A DNA stretch of 64,000 bases from Myxococcota bacterium (GCA_963169045.1 CAUJDF010000044.1:248001-312000); one strand, 5' to 3'. Shown: positions 36,126 to 45,850, counted from the stretch's first letter. A program made the numbers and translations. The notes: generated from the letters alone by a model not told the origin.

Positions 36126-37736
36126 TCAGGCGCGACGTTCCACGCGCGCCGCCAGCCGGAGGCGCTCGCGGAAACGCAGGACCTCTCCTGCGCTGGGCGG
36201 GCGCGCCCGCAGCTCGGCTTCGAGCGCCGGCCGCACCTGCTCGAGCTGGACGCGCGTCACCTCGACGAGCTGCAGGAGGTGGAAGCCGCGCTTCGACCGC
36301 ACGAGGCGCACCTCGCCCGGCTGCATTTCGTTCAGCGCCGCGTCGATCTCCGGACCGAGCGCGCCGGCGCGGTACCCGGGATATTCGCCGCCATTGCGCC
36401 GCGTCAGCTCGTCTTCGGAGTACTCGCGGGCCAGCGCCGCGAAGTCGGCGTCGGCTTGCCGGGCTCGCTTGAGCAACTCCGTGGCGCGCCGCTCGGCGAG
36501 GCCCTCGAGCTTGCCCCCGAGGCGTCGGCGCTTGACGCGCTCGTAGTTCGTGGCGACGACGATGTGGCTGACCAGCTTGCGGTCGTCGGCGGGCACGAAC
36601 TCGCGCGCCTGCAGCCGGACGATGACGTATCCTGCCGGGACGCGGATGGGCTCGGACACAACGCCCAGCGGCAGCGTCTCGAGGACGGGGTCGACCTCGG
36701 CGCCCAGGCGGCCGGGATTGAACGTGCCAAGGTCGCCCCCCCGCGCGCGCGTGGCCGGGTCGTCGCTCTCCGCGCGCGCCACCTCCTCGAACGGGCGCCC
36801 GCCCGCGAGGGTCGCGCGCAGCGCCCGCGCACGCTCGAGAGCGCGAGTGAACCGCGCCTCGAGGTCGGCGTCGTCGCGGCCTCGCTGGCGGGCCGAGACC
36901 AGGATCTGCTGGCCGGTGTAGCGCGCGCCGCGACGAATGCCGTCGACGCGGATGACGTGGTGGCCGTGGGGCGTCTCGACGACGGGCGAGAGCTCCCCGG
37001 GCGAGAGCCGCGCGACCGCCTCGTCGAAGGCGGCGCCGTAGCGGCCCGCCCACAGCGCCCCCAGCGCGCCGCCACGCGCGGCGGACTCGTCGTCGGAGCG
37101 CTCCCGGGCCAGCGCCGCGAAGTCCGTGCCTTCGACGACACGCGCGCGCAGCTCCGTGGCGAGGGTTCGCGCCTCCGCGTCGACCGCGTCACGCTCCTGG
37201 AAGTACTCCTCCCGCGAGTAGAAACGCGTGGCCTCGACCTGCGTGCTGACGAGGATCTGACGGACCCGGAGCCGGACGCCACCCTCGCCGTGGCGCCGGG
37301 TGAACAGCGCCTCAAGCTCGGCAGCCTCCACCCGCCGCGCCATGAGCGCGCGGGCGAGCCGGTCGAAGCGCACCTCGCGACGACGCGTCGCGCGCCAGCC
37401 CTCCGCGTTCAGGCCGCGACGCGCCAGGTCGGCCTCCCAGGCCGACGGATCGCCCCGGAACCGCGCCGCGACCACTTCGCGAATCTCGCTCTCGACCGCG
37501 ACGGACACCTCGGCATCATCGACGGTGAGCCCGGCGGCGGCGGCTTCGCGTTCGACCAGATGGTCCTCGACCAGCTCCTCGTCGCTGCGGCTGTCGCCGG
37601 GCGCGCGCGGGACGGGCACACCGTCGACGGTGAGGACAGGCTCGCCGCGCGCCGGCTCCGACGGCTCCTCGCTGCCGCACGCCACGAGGGCGAAGCAGAG
37701 CCAGAGTTGGAGCGCAGAACGGCGGAGGCAATGCAT
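36126..37736 (-). CDS. Lipoprotein with three tandem parvulin-type PPIase domains (SurA/PrsA-like)
   Basis: 536 residues. A lipoprotein signal ends in LVAC (Cys20). A SurA_N-like helical region (about 40-150) is followed by three parvulin domains at about 158-275, 280-385 and 390-505. Each begins with a QIL/HIV strand (RVRQILVST, YTGQQILVSA, KLVSHIVVAT), contains DFAALAREYSEDE-type helices with a GG loop, and ends in G-x-H/Y-x-x-x-L/V (HGHHVIRV, AGYVIVRL, RGFHLLQL). It is likely a periplasmic chaperone or isomerase for outer-membrane proteins. The start at 37736 is chosen because the ATG nine bases upstream lies inside the -10 box. Confidence 0.85.
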   Translation of the reverse strand: MHCLRRSALQLWLCFALVACGSEEPSEPARGEPVLTVDGVPVPRAPGDSRSDEELVEDHLVEREAAAAGLTVDDAEVSVAVESEIREVVAARFRGDPSAWEADLARRGLNAEGWRATRRREVRFDRLARALMARRVEAAELEALFTRRHGEGGVRLRVRQILVSTQVEATRFYSREEYFQERDAVDAEARTLATELRARVVEGTDFAALARERSDDESAARGGALGALWAGRYGAAFDEAVARLSPGELSPVVETPHGHHVIRVDGIRRGARYTGQQILVSARQRGRDDADLEARFTRALERARALRATLAGGRPFEEVARAESDDPATRARGGDLGTFNPGRLGAEVDPVLETLPLGVVSEPIRVPAGYVIVRLQAREFVPADDRKLVSHIVVATNYERVKRRRLGGKLEGLAERRATELLKRARQADADFAALAREYSEDELTRRNGGEYPGYRAGALGPEIDAALNEMQPGEVRLVRSKRGFHLLQLVEVTRVQLEQVRPALEAELRARPPSAGEVLRFRERLRLAARVERRA

Positions 37737-37742
37737 GGCGCG

Positions 37743-37772
37743 CATCTTCGAGAGCGGCCCTGACCATGTCAA
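37743..37772 (-). promoter_or_regulatory. Leaderless-type promoter of the triple-parvulin gene
   Basis: TTGACA (37767-37772), an 18-base spacer and AAGATG (37743-37748), then CGCGCC and the ATG. Six bases between -10 and ATG put the start site on the A of ATG. The 15 bases AAGATGCGCGCCATG are identical at the DUF72 gene (53811-53825). Confidence 0.65.
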
Positions 37773-37801
37773 CGCGCGCCCACTTTTCGCATCGCGACCC
37801 G

Positions 37802-37830
37802 TTGACAACCCGCGGGGCCGCAACTAGAGT
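37802..37830 (+). promoter_or_regulatory. Consensus promoter of tRNA-Ala
   Basis: TTGACA (37802-37807), a 17-base spacer and TAGAGT (37825-37830), about 50 bases before the tRNA. It may also serve the hydrolase gene if the hairpin behind the tRNA leaks. Confidence 0.8.
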
Positions 37831-38016: not shown

Positions 38017-38625
38017 GTGATCGTTCTCGTCCACGGCTATCTGGCGCCGGGGGCGCTTCTCTGGCCCCTGGCACGCCAGCTCGAACGCCTCGGCCACCGC
38101 GCCGAGGTGTTCTCCTATCCTTCCCATCGCGGCACCGTCGAGGAGCACGCCGAGTCTCTGCGGCGCCACCTCGTCGCCGCCGGCCGGCGCGCCGGCCGCA
38201 CACCGCTGGCGGTGTTCGGCCACTCCCTCGGCGGACTGCTCGTGCACCACGCGCTGGCCGACGGCGCCGGCCTCCCCGCCATCGAGCGCCGCATCTTCGC
38301 CGCCACGCCGCACCGCGGCTGTCGGGCGGCGCGACTCACCGTCCGCGGACCCCTGGCCCGTCTCCTCTCGCCCGTCGGCCGCGCCGCGATCGCCGGTGTG
38401 ACCCGCGACGCGGCCCACCCCGCGCGCACGGGCGTGATCATCGCCACCCACGATCGCCTCGTGCTGCCCGAAGAGGCCGAGCTGCCAGCGGCCGATGACC
38501 GCATCGAGCTGCCCTTCGGCCACAACGACCTGCTCGTACGCGCCCGCACCGCCCGTGCGGTGGCCAGCTTCGTCGCGAGCGGCCGGTTCTCACCCGAGCC
38601 GGACTGGTCGCAGATCCGCCCCTGA
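38017..38625 (+). CDS. Small alpha/beta hydrolase (lipase-like)
   Basis: 202 residues from a GTG. The oxyanion region VLVHGYLAPG (residues 3-12) and nucleophile elbow GHSLGGLL (about 67-74) are clear. The latter part has IIATHDRLVLPEEA, a likely acid loop, and ELPFGHNDLL, a likely catalytic His. It has no signal peptide. The arrangement resembles short triacylglycerol lipase/PGAP1-like esterases; substrate unknown. It follows tRNA-Ala closely with no obvious promoter of its own. Confidence 0.8.
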   Translation: MIVLVHGYLAPGALLWPLARQLERLGHRAEVFSYPSHRGTVEEHAESLRRHLVAAGRRAGRTPLAVFGHSLGGLLVHHALADGAGLPAIERRIFAATPHRGCRAARLTVRGPLARLLSPVGRAAIAGVTRDAAHPARTGVIIATHDRLVLPEEAELPAADDRIELPFGHNDLLVRARTARAVASFVASGRFSPEPDWSQIRP

Positions 38626-38780: not shown

Positions 38781-41700
38781 GTGTCACGCGCCGTACGCCT
38801 CGCTCTCTTCGCCTCTTGCCTCTCGTTGTTGGTGCTCTCCGCTTGCGATGACGGCGGCGGCGGAGGAGCGGGAGGTGCGGGAGGCGGCGCGGGCGGCGGT
38901 GGAGGCGGCGCCGGTGGCGACGGTGGCGCCGGCGGCAGCGGCGGCGGCGGCGGCAGCGGCGGCAACGGTGGCGGTCAGGGGGGCGGCGGCGGCACGTGCG
39001 GCGAGCCCGACCCCATGGCCGACTGTGAGGGGGTCGCGTTCGCGCCCTGCACGCCGAGCGCCGGCAGCAACGGGGCGACCCTGGTCCGCGGCACCGTCGT
39101 CACCCCGGACCGCGTCTACTGCGATGGTGCCGTCCTGTTCGACCGCCAGAGCCGGAAGATCGCCTGTGTCGGCGACGACTGCGCGGGCCACGCGCTCGCC
39201 GCCGAGGCGACCGTCGTTTGCGCGGACGTCGTCTCGCCGGGGCTCATCGACGCCCACAACCACATGAGCTACAACACCCTGCCCCGGTGGCAGCACGAGG
39301 GCCCGACGTTCAGCAACCGCGGTCAGTGGAACGGCCTGGTCGCGGGCGACCTGTACGACGCCCGGCCGCCCGCCGACGACCCGATCGCCGCGCGGTACAA
39401 CGAGCTGCGGCTCCTCATGGCCGGCACCACCGCCGTGCACAAGGCGCAGGGCGGCCCGGCCACCGGCGACCACATCCGCAACCTCGACCGCGGCCCCGAC
39501 GGCAACGACCTCGGTTACGGCGACGACGACTTCACCGAGTGCGTGTTCCCGCTACAGGACAGCTGCCGCGAGGCGCCGAGCTACACCGACGGCAACCGTG
39601 TGCCAGCCCGTACCTATGTCGCGCACGTCGCCGAGGGCTACGACCGCGTCTCGACGGAGGAATTCGACGACTTCACCGCGGCCGGCCAGCTCGGCGAGAA
39701 GACCGCCATCGTGCACTGCGTCGGCTGTACCGCCGAGCAGCTGTCGCAGGTCCGCTCGGCAGGCGCCCGCCTCGTGTGGTCCCCGCAGTCGAACATCGAT
39801 CTCTACGGCGTGACCACCGACGTGGCGACGGCGAAGCGGATGGGCATCCCCATCGCGCTCGGACCCGACTGGACGCCCTCCGGCACCATGAACCTGCTGG
39901 CCGAGATGAAGTGCGCCGACCACGTGTCGGGCCGCTACTACGACGGCTTGTTCGACGAGCGCGACATCGTCCGCATGGTCACACGCGACGCGGCGAAGGC
40001 TCTCGGCCTCGACGACCTCATCGGCGTGCTCGAGCCGGGGATGTTCGCTGACGTGCTGCTCGTCCGCGGCAACCGCGCGCGGCCCTACCGCGCCATCCTC
40101 GAGGCCAAGGCGGCGGACGTCCGCGGCGTCTTCATCGGCGGCGTCGCCTACTACGGCGACGCCGACGTCGTGAGCGGCGACATCGCGCTCAACGACCTGT
40201 GCGAGGACGTCGACGTCTGCGGCGCCGCCGCGAAGCGCATCTGCGTCCGTCAGGAGGCCGGAGCGACCGATGGGCGCAACAAGAACGACTGGGCGAAGTT
40301 CTCGTACGCGCAGCACATCTCCTACCTCGAGTCGCTGATCAGCGGCCTGCCCGGCGCCGACGGCGAGAACGCCTACGCGTTCAACCTCTATCCGTTGTTC
40401 GAGTGCGAGCCGACTTTCACGTGCGACCTCGGCAACCGCGACATCCCCGGCACGCCGGCAGCCGGTGACGGCGACGGCGACGGCGTCGCCGACGCGCAGG
40501 ACGTGTGCCCCGCGGTCTTCGACCCGCGCCAGGGCGATCTCGACGGGGACGGCGCCGGCGATGCTTGCGACCCCTGCCCCTGGAGCGAGCAGGCCTGCCC
40601 GTGCGCCCCGCCAGGCGCCAACGACCGGGACGGCGACGGCGTCGCGGACGCGGATGACCTCTGTCCCGATCGCGCCGATCCGGATCAGGCCGACGGCGAC
40701 GGCGACGGCACCGGCGACGCCTGCGACGCCTGTCCTGCCACGCCCGACTCGCCCGCGCGCGGGTGCCCGGTCGAGATCGCGGCCATCAAGCGCGGCGAGG
40801 CCGGGGAGGGCGTGCGTGTGGCCGCGCGCGGCATCGTGACCGCCGTCGCGGCAAGCGGCGGCCTCTTCGTCCAGGATCCGGACGGCGGCCCGGACTTCTC
40901 CGGGCTCTTCGTGTTCGTCGGCAACGCGCAGATGGGACTGCCGACGCCGTCCGTGGGCGACCCCGTGACCGTCACCGGCGTGACGCAGCACTTCTTCGGT
41001 CAGTGGCAGCTCGCCCAGGTCACCGGGCTCGAGGTCGAAGCGGGCGGACCGCTGCCCCTCCCGGCGCCCGCCATCGTGGCGCCGGCCGACGTGGCCACCG
41101 GCGGCCCGCGCGCCGAGGCGCTCGAGGCCGCGCTGGTGCGCGTGGAGGACGTCGAGGTGACCGCGCAGAATCCGCCCGCCGGCCCCGGCGATCGCGATCC
41201 GACCAACGCGTTCGTGGTCGACGGCGCGCTCCAGGTCGACGACTACCTGTTCGCGCTCCCGGCGCTGCCCGACGTCGGGACGCGCTTTGCCGCCATCCAG
41301 GGCGTTCTGAGGTTCGCGAACAACGCCTCGAAGCTCGAGCCGCGCTCGGCCGACGACCTGCAGTCGGTGCCCGCCGCGGCGGTGTCGCTGGCGCCGGCGA
41401 TGACGACGGCGCGGGTCGGCGGGCAGCACCCACCCGTCGGTGGCGACGGCGCCCCGCTGACAGTGACCCTGGCGGAGCCGGCACCCGCGGGCGGCGCCGT
41501 CGTCCGCATCACGAGTGACGACGCCCAGGTGCTGCCGGACGCAGAGGTCGTCATCGCGGCCGGCGCGCGGACGGGCAGCGTCCCACTCCGGTTCCTGCGG
41601 CCCACCCCGGCGCTGACCCTCACCGCCCGGCTCGGCGAGGACGAGGCCAACTCCACCGTCCGCGTGATCGCCGCCGACACGCCCTCCCGCCCGGCGCGCG

Positions 41701-42488
41701 TCGAGCCCGAGCGCCTCGAGTTGGCGCCCGGCGCCCAGGGCGAGCTCCGCGTGTTCCTCGACGTGCCCGCGCCCGAGCAGGGCGTCGCGCTCGAGGTGCT
41801 CGCCGAGCCCGCCGGCGCGCTGCAGGTGCCAGCGGAGCTCGTGGTCGCGCCGGGCGCGAACGTTCAGACCCTGCTCGTGACGGCGGGCGCAGAGCCGGGC
41901 GAGGTCACGCTCGACATCGGCCTCGAGCGCGCGCGCGTCGAGGCCATCGTCGTCGTCGCCGTGCCGCCCGCCGGCGACGGCCTCGTGATCAACGAGATCG
42001 ACTACGACATGGGCGGGGTCGAGAACGACGAGTTCATCGAGATCTTCAACGGCACCGCCGCCGCCGTGCCCGTCGCCGGGCTCCGCGTGGAGCTCATCAA
42101 CGGCAACAACGGCGCGACCTACGCCACCTACCCGCTCGATGGGGCGGGCGGCGCGCTCGAGCCGGGCGGCTACCTGCTCCTCGCCGACGCCAACATGCAG
42201 GTGCCCGAGGGCGTGCCGGTCGTGCGCATGCGCGACAACGACGGCGGTCACCAGCTCCAGAACGGCCCCGACGCGGTCCGCCTCGTCGGGGGCGATGGCG
42301 TCATCGACACCGTGGTCTACGGGGAGCCGATCGAGGGCATCGGCGAGGGCGGGCCCGCGCCGGCCGACCGCAACGACGCCTCGGGCGTCGCGATCGGCCG
42401 GTGCCCCAACGGTGCGGATTCCAACGACAATTCGGTCGATTTCACGCTGGCGGCCCGTTCCCCGGGCGTCGCCAACACCTGCCGGTGA
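38781..42488 (+). CDS. Giant lipoprotein: amidohydrolase + TSP3 + OB-like + lamin-tail domain
   Basis: 1235 residues from a GTG behind GGGGGAAG. A lipoprotein signal ends in LSAC (Cys22) and a Gly-rich linker spans 25-72. A metal-dependent amidohydrolase domain covers about 95-490: DAHNHMSY at about 158-165, then HVAEG, VHCVG and GPDWTPSGT supply the expected metal and catalytic ligands of imidazolonepropionase-like enzymes. TSP3 calcium repeats follow (DGDGDGVADAQDVCP, DRDGDGVADADDLCP) at about 560-665. Next is an OB-like region found in extracellular nucleases (VRVAARGIVTAVAASGGLFVQ), then beta-rich modules, and a C-terminal lamin-tail domain (LVINEIDYDMGGVENDEFIE). It is probably a surface-bound hydrolase; substrate unknown. 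Confidence 0.8.
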   Translation: MSRAVRLALFASCLSLLVLSACDDGGGGGAGGAGGGAGGGGGGAGGDGGAGGSGGGGGSGGNGGGQGGGGGTCGEPDPMADCEGVAFAPCTPSAGSNGATLVRGTVVTPDRVYCDGAVLFDRQSRKIACVGDDCAGHALAAEATVVCADVVSPGLIDAHNHMSYNTLPRWQHEGPTFSNRGQWNGLVAGDLYDARPPADDPIAARYNELRLLMAGTTAVHKAQGGPATGDHIRNLDRGPDGNDLGYGDDDFTECVFPLQDSCREAPSYTDGNRVPARTYVAHVAEGYDRVSTEEFDDFTAAGQLGEKTAIVHCVGCTAEQLSQVRSAGARLVWSPQSNIDLYGVTTDVATAKRMGIPIALGPDWTPSGTMNLLAEMKCADHVSGRYYDGLFDERDIVRMVTRDAAKALGLDDLIGVLEPGMFADVLLVRGNRARPYRAILEAKAADVRGVFIGGVAYYGDADVVSGDIALNDLCEDVDVCGAAAKRICVRQEAGATDGRNKNDWAKFSYAQHISYLESLISGLPGADGENAYAFNLYPLFECEPTFTCDLGNRDIPGTPAAGDGDGDGVADAQDVCPAVFDPRQGDLDGDGAGDACDPCPWSEQACPCAPPGANDRDGDGVADADDLCPDRADPDQADGDGDGTGDACDACPATPDSPARGCPVEIAAIKRGEAGEGVRVAARGIVTAVAASGGLFVQDPDGGPDFSGLFVFVGNAQMGLPTPSVGDPVTVTGVTQHFFGQWQLAQVTGLEVEAGGPLPLPAPAIVAPADVATGGPRAEALEAALVRVEDVEVTAQNPPAGPGDRDPTNAFVVDGALQVDDYLFALPALPDVGTRFAAIQGVLRFANNASKLEPRSADDLQSVPAAAVSLAPAMTTARVGGQHPPVGGDGAPLTVTLAEPAPAGGAVVRITSDDAQVLPDAEVVIAAGARTGSVPLRFLRPTPALTLTARLGEDEANSTVRVIAADTPSRPARVEPERLELAPGAQGELRVFLDVPAPEQGVALEVLAEPAGALQVPAELVVAPGANVQTLLVTAGAEPGEVTLDIGLERARVEAIVVVAVPPAGDGLVINEIDYDMGGVENDEFIEIFNGTAAAVPVAGLRVELINGNNGATYATYPLDGAGGALEPGGYLLLADANMQVPEGVPVVRMRDNDGGHQLQNGPDAVRLVGGDGVIDTVVYGEPIEGIGEGGPAPADRNDASGVAIGRCPNGADSNDNSVDFTLAARSPGVANTCR

Positions 42489-42525: not shown

Positions 42526-44583
42526 TCAGTAGCGAGCGAGCTGCTGGAGGGCCTCGAGGACGTCGGCCTCCTGCGGGAGGATGGCGCGCTCGACGATGCG
42601 CGAGAACGCGATGGGCACGTCCTTCGCGCCGACGCGCATCACGGGCGCGTCCAGCCACTCGAACGCGTCACGGGCGATCGTCGCCGCGATCTCGGCGCCG
42701 AATCCCTGTGTGAGGTGGTCCTCGTGGACGATCACCACCTTGCCGGTGCGCTTGACGGAGTCGAGGACGGTCTGCCGGTCCCAGGGCTTGATCGACCGCA
42801 GGTCGATGACCTCGGCCTCGACGCCCTCCTTCGCGAGCTTGTGCGCGGCGCGGAGGCTCCAGTGTACGGGCGTGCCCCAGGCGACGACCGTCAGGTCGGT
42901 GCCGGGCCGGCGAACACGCGCCCGGCCGAACGGCACGGCGTGCTCCTCGCCGCAGCGGGGCGTCGCCGCGAAGCCTTGGTTGTAGAGGAACTTCGGCTCA
43001 AGGAAGAACGTCGGGCCCTTGCTGCGGATGGCGGTGCGCAGCAGTCCGGCGGCGTCGTCGGCGAACGCCGGCACCACGACCCGGAAGCCGGGGACGTGTG
43101 CGAACACGGCCTCCACGTTCTGGGAGTGATAGAGGCCACCGCCGATGTATCCGCCGCTCGACAGACGGATGGTGACGTTGGGCGAGTACTGGCCCTTGGT
43201 GCGCCAGTACTCGTGGCCCATCTCGATGATCTGCTCCATCGCCGGCCACACGTAGTCGGCGAACTGGGCGGCCTCGATGACGACGCGGATGTCGTCGCGG
43301 TAGCGACACAGTCCGTTGGCGGTGCCGACGATGAAGTCCTCGGCGATGGGCGCATTGAACACGCGCCCGCGCCCGAAGGCCTGCTGCATGCCCTTCGTCA
43401 CGAGGAAGACGCCGCCCTTCTCTTTGCTGGCGACGTCCTGCCCCCAGAGGAAGGCGTTGGAATTCCTGCGGAATTCAGCGTGCAGCGTCTCGTTGATCGC
43501 TTCGCGCAGCTTCCACTCGTCGCCGCCGGTCGGTGTCGGCGTCTCGGCGGGTTCCCAGGCCGGCGGCTCGGCGAACTCGATCCACGATCCGGGCTCCGGG
43601 TCGGGCGCCGCCTCGGCGCGCTCGGCGGCGCGGGTCACCTCGTCGCGGTTGGCGGCCTCGATGGCCTCGAGGTCGGCCTCGCCGGCGATGCCAGCGGCAA
43701 GGATGTCGGCCCGGAGCCGGTTCAGCGGGTCGCGGGCGCGGGCCGCCGCGATCTCCTCCTCGCTGCGGTACAGCTCGTGGCGATCCGAGTTGCTGTGGGC
43801 CCCGATGCGCTCGCAGAACGCGTGGACCATCGCCGGGCCCCTGCCGCTGCGCACGTACTCGAGCGCCCGCTGCATCCCGAGGTGGCAGTCGACGAAGTCC
43901 GTCCCGTCGACGTTGATGATCTCGACGTTCGCGAGGCCCGCGTAGTTGTCGGAGACGCGCGCGTTCGCGGACTGCTCCTCGACGGGCACCGAGATGCCGA
44001 ACCGGTTGTTCTGGATGACGAACACGACCGGCAGCTTCTCGCGGCTGGCGCCGTTGTAGGCCTCGTAGCAGTAGCCCTCGCTGGTGCTCGCCTCGCCCTG
44101 GCTGCTGAAGACGACCGCGTCGCCGTCGAAGAACTTCACGGCGCGCGCGAGGCCCACGGCGTGAAGCGCGTGGTTGCCGGTGCACGAGGAGACGTTCTGG
44201 ACGCCGATGGCCGGCTTCGCGAAGTGGTTCGACATGTGCCGGCCGCCGCCCGCCACGTCGGTCTCCTTCGACAGGCCGTTGAGGATGATCTCTTCGGGTG
44301 TCAGACCGGCGGCGAGACACGTCAACATGTCGCGGTAGTAAGGGAACAGGAAGTCCCGGCCGGCGCGGAACGCGAGCCCGAGCGTCAGCTGGATGCCGTC
44401 GTGACCGGCGAACGGGGCATGGTAGCTCCAACCCTTGGCCTTGCGGATGTATCCGACGGCCAGGTCCTCGAGCAGGCGGCCGAGGTGCGTCAGCCGGTAC
44501 CACTCGCGCACGAGGGCCGGGTCGATCGCCTTCAGCGCCGCGCCGTGCTGCTGCTCCCCCGTGCCGCTCTTCGCTGCCACCAC
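42526..44583 (-). CDS. Fused alpha-beta E1 of a 2-oxoacid dehydrogenase-type TPP enzyme
   Basis: 685 residues. Residues 1 to about 330 are an E1-alpha: YRLTHLGRLLEDLAVGYIRKAKG, PYYRDMLTCLAAG, then the TPP region SSQGEASTSEGYCYEAYNGA ending in NNRFGIS. The usual GDG reads GEA, as in a subset of fused E1 proteins. Residues about 365-685 are an E1-beta (LREAINETLHAEFRRN, FNAPIAEDFIVGTANG, VHEDHLTQGFGAEIAA). Fused E1s are annotated as branched-chain or pyruvate-type dehydrogenases; the substrate is not decided here, and no E2 or E3 gene is nearby. The GTG at 44583 follows GGAGG by six bases. Confidence 0.85.
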   Translation of the reverse strand: MVAAKSGTGEQQHGAALKAIDPALVREWYRLTHLGRLLEDLAVGYIRKAKGWSYHAPFAGHDGIQLTLGLAFRAGRDFLFPYYRDMLTCLAAGLTPEEIILNGLSKETDVAGGGRHMSNHFAKPAIGVQNVSSCTGNHALHAVGLARAVKFFDGDAVVFSSQGEASTSEGYCYEAYNGASREKLPVVFVIQNNRFGISVPVEEQSANARVSDNYAGLANVEIINVDGTDFVDCHLGMQRALEYVRSGRGPAMVHAFCERIGAHSNSDRHELYRSEEEIAAARARDPLNRLRADILAAGIAGEADLEAIEAANRDEVTRAAERAEAAPDPEPGSWIEFAEPPAWEPAETPTPTGGDEWKLREAINETLHAEFRRNSNAFLWGQDVASKEKGGVFLVTKGMQQAFGRGRVFNAPIAEDFIVGTANGLCRYRDDIRVVIEAAQFADYVWPAMEQIIEMGHEYWRTKGQYSPNVTIRLSSGGYIGGGLYHSQNVEAVFAHVPGFRVVVPAFADDAAGLLRTAIRSKGPTFFLEPKFLYNQGFAATPRCGEEHAVPFGRARVRRPGTDLTVVAWGTPVHWSLRAAHKLAKEGVEAEVIDLRSIKPWDRQTVLDSVKRTGKVVIVHEDHLTQGFGAEIAATIARDAFEWLDAPVMRVGAKDVPIAFSRIVERAILPQEADVLEALQQLARY

Positions 44584-44618
44584 CGTCCACCTCCGATCTA
44601 AGGATGAGATCGCGCGCC

Positions 44619-44646
44619 AATGTACCGACTCGGGCCGCCCGGTCAA
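44619..44646 (-). promoter_or_regulatory. Promoter of the fused E1 gene
   Basis: TTGACC (44641-44646), a 16-base spacer and TACATT (44619-44624) on the minus strand, with a leader of about 30 bases ending in GGAGG. Confidence 0.7.
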
Positions 44647-44749
44647 CCCCAGGAGGGCGGCGTTCCTTCCTTCTGGAATTGCGGAGCGCAACCCGGTTGC
44701 GGTATGAGCCCGTACGCTTTCGCGGCTTCGCACGGAGGGAACTGAGAGC

Positions 44750-45850
44750 ATGTCGGCCTTCACCAGGTGGCAGAACGGTCTCGTGGCGGCGATCGGCCTC
44801 GCCGGGCTCGCGCTCGCCGGTTGCGGCAACAAGAACGAGGGCGGCGACAAGCCGGCCACGGGGACGCCGGCGACCGAGGCCGCGGCCCAGGCGCAGGCGC
44901 CCGCTTCGGCGGCTCCGGCCGATGGCTTCGCCGCGCTGCTCGACGGCGCCGCGGGCTGCGTCGCCGAAGGCAGGCTCAACCGCTCCTGCGAAGGCTACGT
45001 CAAGCTGTCCCGCGAGCTCGCGCAGAAGCCCGACAAGGACGCCGTCGCCAAGGTGGTCGTCGCCGCCGAGTCGCCCGAGGCCAACAAGAAGCTGGTGGCG
45101 CTCTCGCTGCTCGCCCGCACGTACCCCGAAGAGGGCGAGGTCGCCGCGAAGCTCCTCCCCCGCCTCGACCAGGAGACCGACGCCAACGTCCAGGTCGAGC
45201 TGCTGCGCGCGCTCGCGCCGCGCACGGGCGCCGGCGTCGAGGAGAAGGCGCTCGCCCTCCTCGGCGAGGGCAAGGAGCCCGCGGTGCGCGCCGCGGCGGC
45301 CCGCGTCCTGAGCCACGAGGCGCACGCGGGCTTCGCCGCGCAGTCGGCGCCCAAGCTGCTCGAGGCCCTCGAGAAGGACTCCGCCCCCGCGGTGCGCCGC
45401 CAGGCCGCCACCGGCCTCGGCAACCTCAAGCACGAGGCGGCGATCGAGCCCCTCATCAAGTCGCTCGACGACGAGTTGGTCGCGCCGGCGGCGACGTTCG
45501 CGCTGGCCCGGTTCGAGTCGCCCGCGGCCTACGACGCCATCTGGAAGCGCATCGAGGACGGCGCGAAGACGGGCAAGGTCTCGCTGTCGCTGCTGGCCTC
45601 GGTCAAGCTGCTCGAGAAGCACCCCAAGCACGACGCGACGAAGGAGCTGAAGACCCTCGAGAAGATCAAGGCTCAGCTCGCCAAGACCGCCGGGGCCGAC
45701 CAGCAGTCCCAGGCCGCGCTTCGCCTCGTCGAGCGCAGCATCGAGCGCCTGAAGGGCGGCGGCGACGCCACGAAGCCCGTCGCGGTGGGCGCGCCGGCGT
45801 CCCAGGCGGCCCCGGTCTCCGCGGGTGGCGCCACCAAGAAGGCCCCTTGA
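44750..45850 (+). CDS. HEAT-repeat lipoprotein upstream of an Omp85 gene
   Basis: 366 residues. The ATG follows GGAGGG. A lipoprotein signal ends in LALAGC (Cys25), followed by an Ala/Pro linker with DGAAGC. HEAT-like repeats span about 75-290 (DANVQVELLRALAPRTG, EPAVRAAAARVLSHEA, SAPAVRRQAATGLGNLKH). The C-terminus is a Lys/Ala-rich helix and an Ala/Pro tail. Its TGA overlaps the TTG start of the TPR gene. Its position ahead of an Omp85 gene suggests an assembly-accessory role, by analogy with BAM lipoproteins; this is inference. Confidence 0.8.
   Translation: MSAFTRWQNGLVAAIGLAGLALAGCGNKNEGGDKPATGTPATEAAAQAQAPASAAPADGFAALLDGAAGCVAEGRLNRSCEGYVKLSRELAQKPDKDAVAKVVVAAESPEANKKLVALSLLARTYPEEGEVAAKLLPRLDQETDANVQVELLRALAPRTGAGVEEKALALLGEGKEPAVRAAAARVLSHEAHAGFAAQSAPKLLEALEKDSAPAVRRQAATGLGNLKHEAAIEPLIKSLDDELVAPAATFALARFESPAAYDAIWKRIEDGAKTGKVSLSLLASVKLLEKHPKHDATKELKTLEKIKAQLAKTAGADQQSQAALRLVERSIERLKGGGDATKPVAVGAPASQAAPVSAGGATKKAP

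Follow-up and report, generated by a model that had tools for sequence, protein, structure and literature searches.

Here we describe a gene of a Myxococcota bacterium whose product combines an amidohydrolase domain with a lipoprotein signal, a cysteine-rich cap, thrombospondin type 3 (TSP3) repeats, an OB-like region, two Ig-like domains and a lamin tail domain (LTD). This combination is a conserved architecture that defines a real protein family and is no one-off accident of gene joining, a conclusion that rests on the recurrence of the same layout in parsed homologues across the phylum. From sequence comparisons and structural models, we consider it probable (roughly 0.7) that the protein is an exported, lipid-anchored and active amidohydrolase of an unnamed clade on the ATZ/TRZ-deaminase side of the superfamily, carried on a calcium-stiffened stalk with a distal binding module.

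Translation of the window, the whole 64-kb stretch of DNA that was analysed, revealed a single open reading frame at 38781-42488 on the + strand, with a GTG start and a length of 1,235 aa. The features of the gene and its upstream neighbour are as follows:

38017..38625, +, alpha/beta hydrolase, upstream neighbour (Pfam Abhydrolase_6, 1.3e-6)
38781..38843, +, lipoprotein signal peptide, residues 1-21 (translation; hydrophobic run up to LSA-C)
38844..38846, +, lipobox Cys22, predicted lipidation site (Cys at the aligned column in 29/29 homologues)
38853..38993, +, Gly-rich spacer, residues ~25-71 (sequence)
39024..40178, +, amidohydrolase domain, residues 82-466, beta sandwich and distorted TIM barrel (Pfam/NCBIfam, AlphaFold2, Foldseek)
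39255..39263, +, metal ligands H159 and H161, HxH, end of strand beta1 (invariant in alignments A1/A3; model)
39624..39635, +, metal ligand H282 and catalytic E285, HxxE, end of strand beta5 (invariant in alignments; model)
39714..39716, +, metal ligand H312, end of strand beta6 (invariant in alignments; model)
39867..39869, +, metal ligand/base D363, DWxxSG motif, end of strand beta8 (invariant in alignments; model)
40182..40436, +, Cys-rich helical cap, residues 468-552, with C474, C480, C488, C542 and C548 (five Cys kept in 31-32/32 homologues)
40458..40760, +, TSP3 calcium-type repeats, residues 560-660, four DxDxDGxxDxxD-like motifs (thrombospondin-2/COMP matches; 35/35 parsed homologues)
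40767..41366, +, OB-like region as in ExeM/NucH, residues 663-862 (NCBIfam NF033681, 8.6e-9; PDB profile match; 34/35 homologues)
41370..41954, +, two Ig-like beta-sandwich domains, residues 864-964 and 966-1058 (model; weak fold matches; home-made HMMs)
41964..42485, +, lamin tail domain and C-terminal extension, residues 1062-1235 (Pfam LTD, 2.8e-10; 26/35 homologues)

The original prediction of a metal-hydrolase domain fused to TSP3, OB-like and LTD modules was confirmed by matches in Pfam, NCBIfam and the PDB. Amidohydro_1 (3.6e-14) lies over its Pfam cut-off, and LTD (PF00932) scores 41 bits against a gathering cut-off of 34.3. The ExeM/NucH-type match in NCBIfam covers residues 683-795 with 34.8 bits, and in a profile search the OB region matched PDB 9sf8/9sf9 at 3.9e-4. 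In PDB searches the TSP3 segment aligns with thrombospondin-2 and COMP, and Pfam TSP_3 was detected in 24 of 27 homologues, though it is absent from the window protein's own Pfam matches. Two parts had escaped the earlier reading, the Cys-rich helical segment (468-552) and the two Ig-like domains (864-1058). The latter lie between OB and LTD in the AlphaFold2 model of residues 556-1235, a flexible chain of beta domains (pLDDT 89.6, pTM 0.55) for which fold searches returned only partial Ig-tandem matches of low TM. All AlphaFold2 models were built on alignments of homologues only.

The signal peptide and the lipobox LSA-C22 place the protein among the bacterial lipoproteins, and the cysteine is present in all 29 aligned homologues. 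Thus, the lipoprotein part of the original prediction stands, as does the Gly-rich tether, which can be followed in the sequence to about residue 71; the outer membrane, also claimed, is a presumptive address. In E. coli, Asp at position +2, as in the window protein, would mean retention in the inner membrane. In M. xanthus the inner-membrane signal is Lys at +2 (PMC3222651), a residue found at that position in 0 of the 21 proteins in which a lipobox was detected, and we infer a location on the outer-membrane surface. There, Cys22 would be lipidated and the Gly-rich spacer would bear the catalytic domain near the membrane. Two M. xanthus amidohydrolases, MXAN_0886, enriched >65-fold in OMV (PMC4158809), and MXAN_0075, found in the extracellular matrix (PMC3222651), may belong to the same family.

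Six residues of the catalytic domain (H159, H161, H282, E285, H312 and D363) show no variation in the family alignments, distant homologues included. The AlphaFold2 model of this domain (pLDDT 88.6, pTM 0.92) places the ligands at the ends of barrel strands 1, 5, 6 and 8, so that a search for missing metal ligands, a weak point foreseen in the original prediction, finds the whole set in place. The ligand set HxH/His/His/Asp together with HxxE assigns the domain to the mononuclear (subtype III-like) amidohydrolases, and such a mononuclear layout is typical of the deaminase/ATZ-TRZ branch. One zinc ion, or a similar metal, would be held by H159, H161, H282 and D363 and would activate a water molecule, with E285 shuttling the proton and H312 polarising the substrate. 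The compound hydrolysed or deaminated in this way, outside the cytoplasm, might be a small heterocyclic or amidine-type molecule, although this choice of substrate class is a guess.

Comparison with NCBIfam models gave the best score for 5'-deoxyadenosine deaminase (NF005557; 71.6 bits, under the curated cut-off of 522), followed by TRZ/ATZ and guanine deaminase (TIGR02967; 62.1 bits, under 375), with imidazolonepropionase (TIGR01224) at 40.8 bits, under 298; none of the subfamily cut-offs of these models was approached by the amidohydrolase domain. Foldseek ranked AtzA first (6.4e-20), and below it MTA/SAH, adenosine and guanine deaminases and the benzoxazole-forming amidohydrolase 6sj0, with HutI at rank 48 and global TM values of ~0.55-0.63 against known enzymes. 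The label imidazolonepropionase-like, under which the domain had been introduced, was therefore abandoned: HutI reaches 37-41 bits, 5'-deoxyadenosine deaminase 67-72 and guanine deaminase 58-62, and the lower profile scores together with the fold rank speak against an imidazolonepropionase origin. The window domain has the superfamily and ligand set in common with HutI but scores lower against it than against the deaminases. The genome also encodes a separate HutI (446.9 bits, locus L125), a HutF and a guanine deaminase. With the ATZ/TRZ hydrolases and the nucleoside/guanine deaminases (AtzA, MTA/SAH) the domain shares the fold and the single-metal set HxH/H/H/D with HxxE; those enzymes, however, are cytoplasmic single-domain proteins, and the window domain has only ~16-20% identity to them and lies under every subfamily cut-off. 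A PADLOC scan of the amidohydrolase domain for defence systems gave no match.

The nearest outside relatives found were single-domain proteins annotated as "amidohydrolase family protein" on proteobacterial plasmids (Rhizobium, Sinorhizobium, Enterobacter mori, Variovorax, Cupriavidus), of which the larger matches cover 65-79% of the domain at ~29-35% identity. They share the signature HxH, NRxxW, RN, HxxEG, WSPxSNxxLYGxT and DWxPSG, but are without apparent signal peptide, conserved cysteines or C-terminal modules; one Azospirillum relative has an unrelated N-terminal extension. In a tree with guanine deaminase, HutI and HutF, but no TRZ/ATZ sequences, as comparators, the Myxococcota and proteobacterial proteins formed one unnamed clade with support 100/99, well apart from these three enzymes; the deeper placement of the clade relative to them is unreliable owing to long branches. 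Twelve cysteines (82, 90, 129, 134, 147, 262, 378, 474, 480, 488, 542 and 548) are kept in at least 28 Myxococcota homologues and are not conserved in the cytosolic proteobacterial ones, making them a feature of Myxococcota. Their pairing as disulfides would fit an oxidising compartment. As far as sequences go, the comparison suggests that a clade of cytosolic enzymes came to be exported in Myxococcota and gained stabilising disulfides, with stalk and binding modules added.

One of the single-domain relatives, on a Sinorhizobium fredii NXT3 plasmid (L154, 1637-8964), adjoins a restriction endonuclease, AbiH and DUF5677, and an adjoining protein matches PADLOC PD-T7-1 (2.7e-57) and PD-T7-5; the single-domain form may thus lie in a defence island there.

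The gene neighbourhood was also compared. In the closest genomes (L046, L047 and L048) the gene is immediately preceded, on its own strand, by an alpha/beta hydrolase, with a further match in L051. Beyond these the only recurring neighbours were protein kinases, whose family is large in this phylum. Since only these recur, the neighbourhood points to no substrate. In the window the gene is followed at 42526-44979 (-) by a single-chain E1 dehydrogenase of 817 aa, in which E1_dh alpha is fused with a beta part made of transketolase pyrimidine and C-terminal domains. At 36126-37823 (-), and kept upstream in near relatives, is a lipoprotein-like protein with three consecutive parvulin (PPIC) domains. 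Additionally, two relatives (L046, 3512-6073; L047, 9750-12131) carry downstream of the gene, on the opposite strand, a protein of ~800 aa that has a MopE-type metal-binding motif. The cluster of this protein has members in five relatives, and none was found next to the window gene.

The proximity to deaminases raises the question of whether the protein could be a surface purine or nucleoside deaminase that converts extracellular nucleobases or nucleosides ahead of their uptake and so supplies purine salvage with material from lysed prey or dead cells. Its best profile and fold neighbours, the 5'-deoxyadenosine, guanine, MTA/SAH and adenosine deaminases, are in keeping with this idea, as are the lack of a complete de novo purine pathway in cultured Bradymonadales (PMC7460792) and the three tandem copies in Bradymonas sediminis. 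All scores, however, are far under the subfamily cut-offs, no purine transporter or nuclease was found to recur near the gene in the compared loci, and Arg180 and Arg233, both conserved, may point to some other substrate, perhaps an anionic one. Moreover, the window genome retains PurE, over its cut-off, and has its own cytosolic guanine deaminase, and because of these two genes we give a role in purine salvage low weight and regard it as unlikely. A wider proposal, that the family is a phylum-wide surface enzyme with new chemistry, in which an exported, disulfide-stabilised, formerly cytosolic deaminase-type amidohydrolase would modify a prey metabolite, an antibiotic or a signal while the distal head holds the target surface, is speculative and rather improbable.

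In the exported amidohydrolase that we favour, the TSP3 repeats would form a calcium-stiffened stalk and OB-Ig-Ig-LTD the distal binding module. The repeated DxDxDGxxDxxD motifs identify the former as thrombospondin type 3 repeats. Calcium-type DxDxDGxxD repeats are shared with thrombospondin/COMP and the myxobacterial MtsC, compared with which the array in the window protein is short and a linker only. For the latter, the original prediction had turned to nucleic acids, with OB and LTD holding the enzyme on extracellular DNA or matrix. As in ExeM/NucH, a secreted chain joins a metal hydrolase to an OB-like region and an LTD; loss of the OB-like N-terminal part abolishes the activity of ExeM (PMC6085458), and LTD is present in some secreted DNases (PMC4486849). 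However, the window protein differs from ExeM/NucH in having no EEP nuclease domain, another domain order, a lipobox anchor and an acidic OB and LTD, and it falls outside that family (NF033681), with its 34.8 bits confined to the OB region against a cut-off of 300. In ExeM itself the LTD is dispensable in vivo (PMC6085458). Nor was any ExeM/NucH-type nuclease found in 58 relatives (E <= 1e-40), and no nuclease family recurs beside the gene.

The acidity holds in all homologues examined, with median pI 4.2 (maximum 5.8) and median net charge -6.6 per 100 aa for OB and median pI 4.1 (maximum 4.6) and -10.1 per 100 aa for LTD, and it is this property that argues against nucleic-acid binding; the argument is softened by the general acidity of the whole protein, and a local basic patch could still exist. 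Furthermore, LTD serves in this genome as a general-purpose surface module in many contexts, with 45 matches, often several per protein, and CotH kinase, PPC, beta-helix and PASTA/PA14 among the partners. Attachment to DNA or matrix through OB and LTD is thus doubtful, and we rate it as very unlikely.

Two further lipoproteins of the window genome (L059, 1616-3691 (-), on contig C42; L060, 1224-3398 (-), on contig C11) consist of spacer plus OB-Ig(-Ig)-LTD and are enzyme-free, from which it follows that the C-terminal half is an independent unit. The existence of the cassette without enzyme, and the large adhesin-like C-terminal half, could suggest that the protein is mainly an adhesin whose amidohydrolase domain has turned structural or binding and lost catalysis. 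But the metal ligands, HxxE and the pocket motifs are invariant even in distant homologues, cytosolic proteobacterial ones included, and because such invariance is not expected of a dead enzyme, this interpretation has little credibility.

The architecture was followed through the phylum, as the original prediction had proposed, and the same layout recurs across much of Myxococcota. A profile search (E <= 1e-20) detected the amidohydrolase domain in 185 of 284 Myxococcota genomes, representing 127 of 189 genera; 33 loci were taken and 35 homologues parsed with home-made HMMs. Amidohydrolase, Cys cap and TSP3 were present in 35/35, OB in 34/35, at least one Ig-like domain in 29/35 and a detectable LTD in 26/35; five proteins end after OB and one after TSP3. 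Homologues matching nearly the whole protein in one open frame were found in the same family, order and class, and with full-length, stop-free homologues in at least eight same-family genomes and many more across the phylum, an error of frame or assembly joining two genes can be dismissed. In a genome taken as that of Bradymonas sediminis (L054, 3810-13891), three family copies lie in tandem, one of them truncated after TSP3.

Secreted amidohydrolases are known in general, and the modules of the protein are each known, but the surface-anchored family itself is apparently undescribed; a literature search of open-licence PMC papers found no paper on it. The class holding the window genome includes known predators. 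Being present in two thirds of the sampled Myxococcota, however, the gene is no marker of predation. The findings thus bring to light a multidomain enzyme that about two thirds of sampled Myxococcota, cultured predators included, have kept and for which neither a name nor a described role was found, and cultured members such as Bradymonas sediminis, with its three tandem copies, provide an entry to small-molecule chemistry at the surface of these bacteria.
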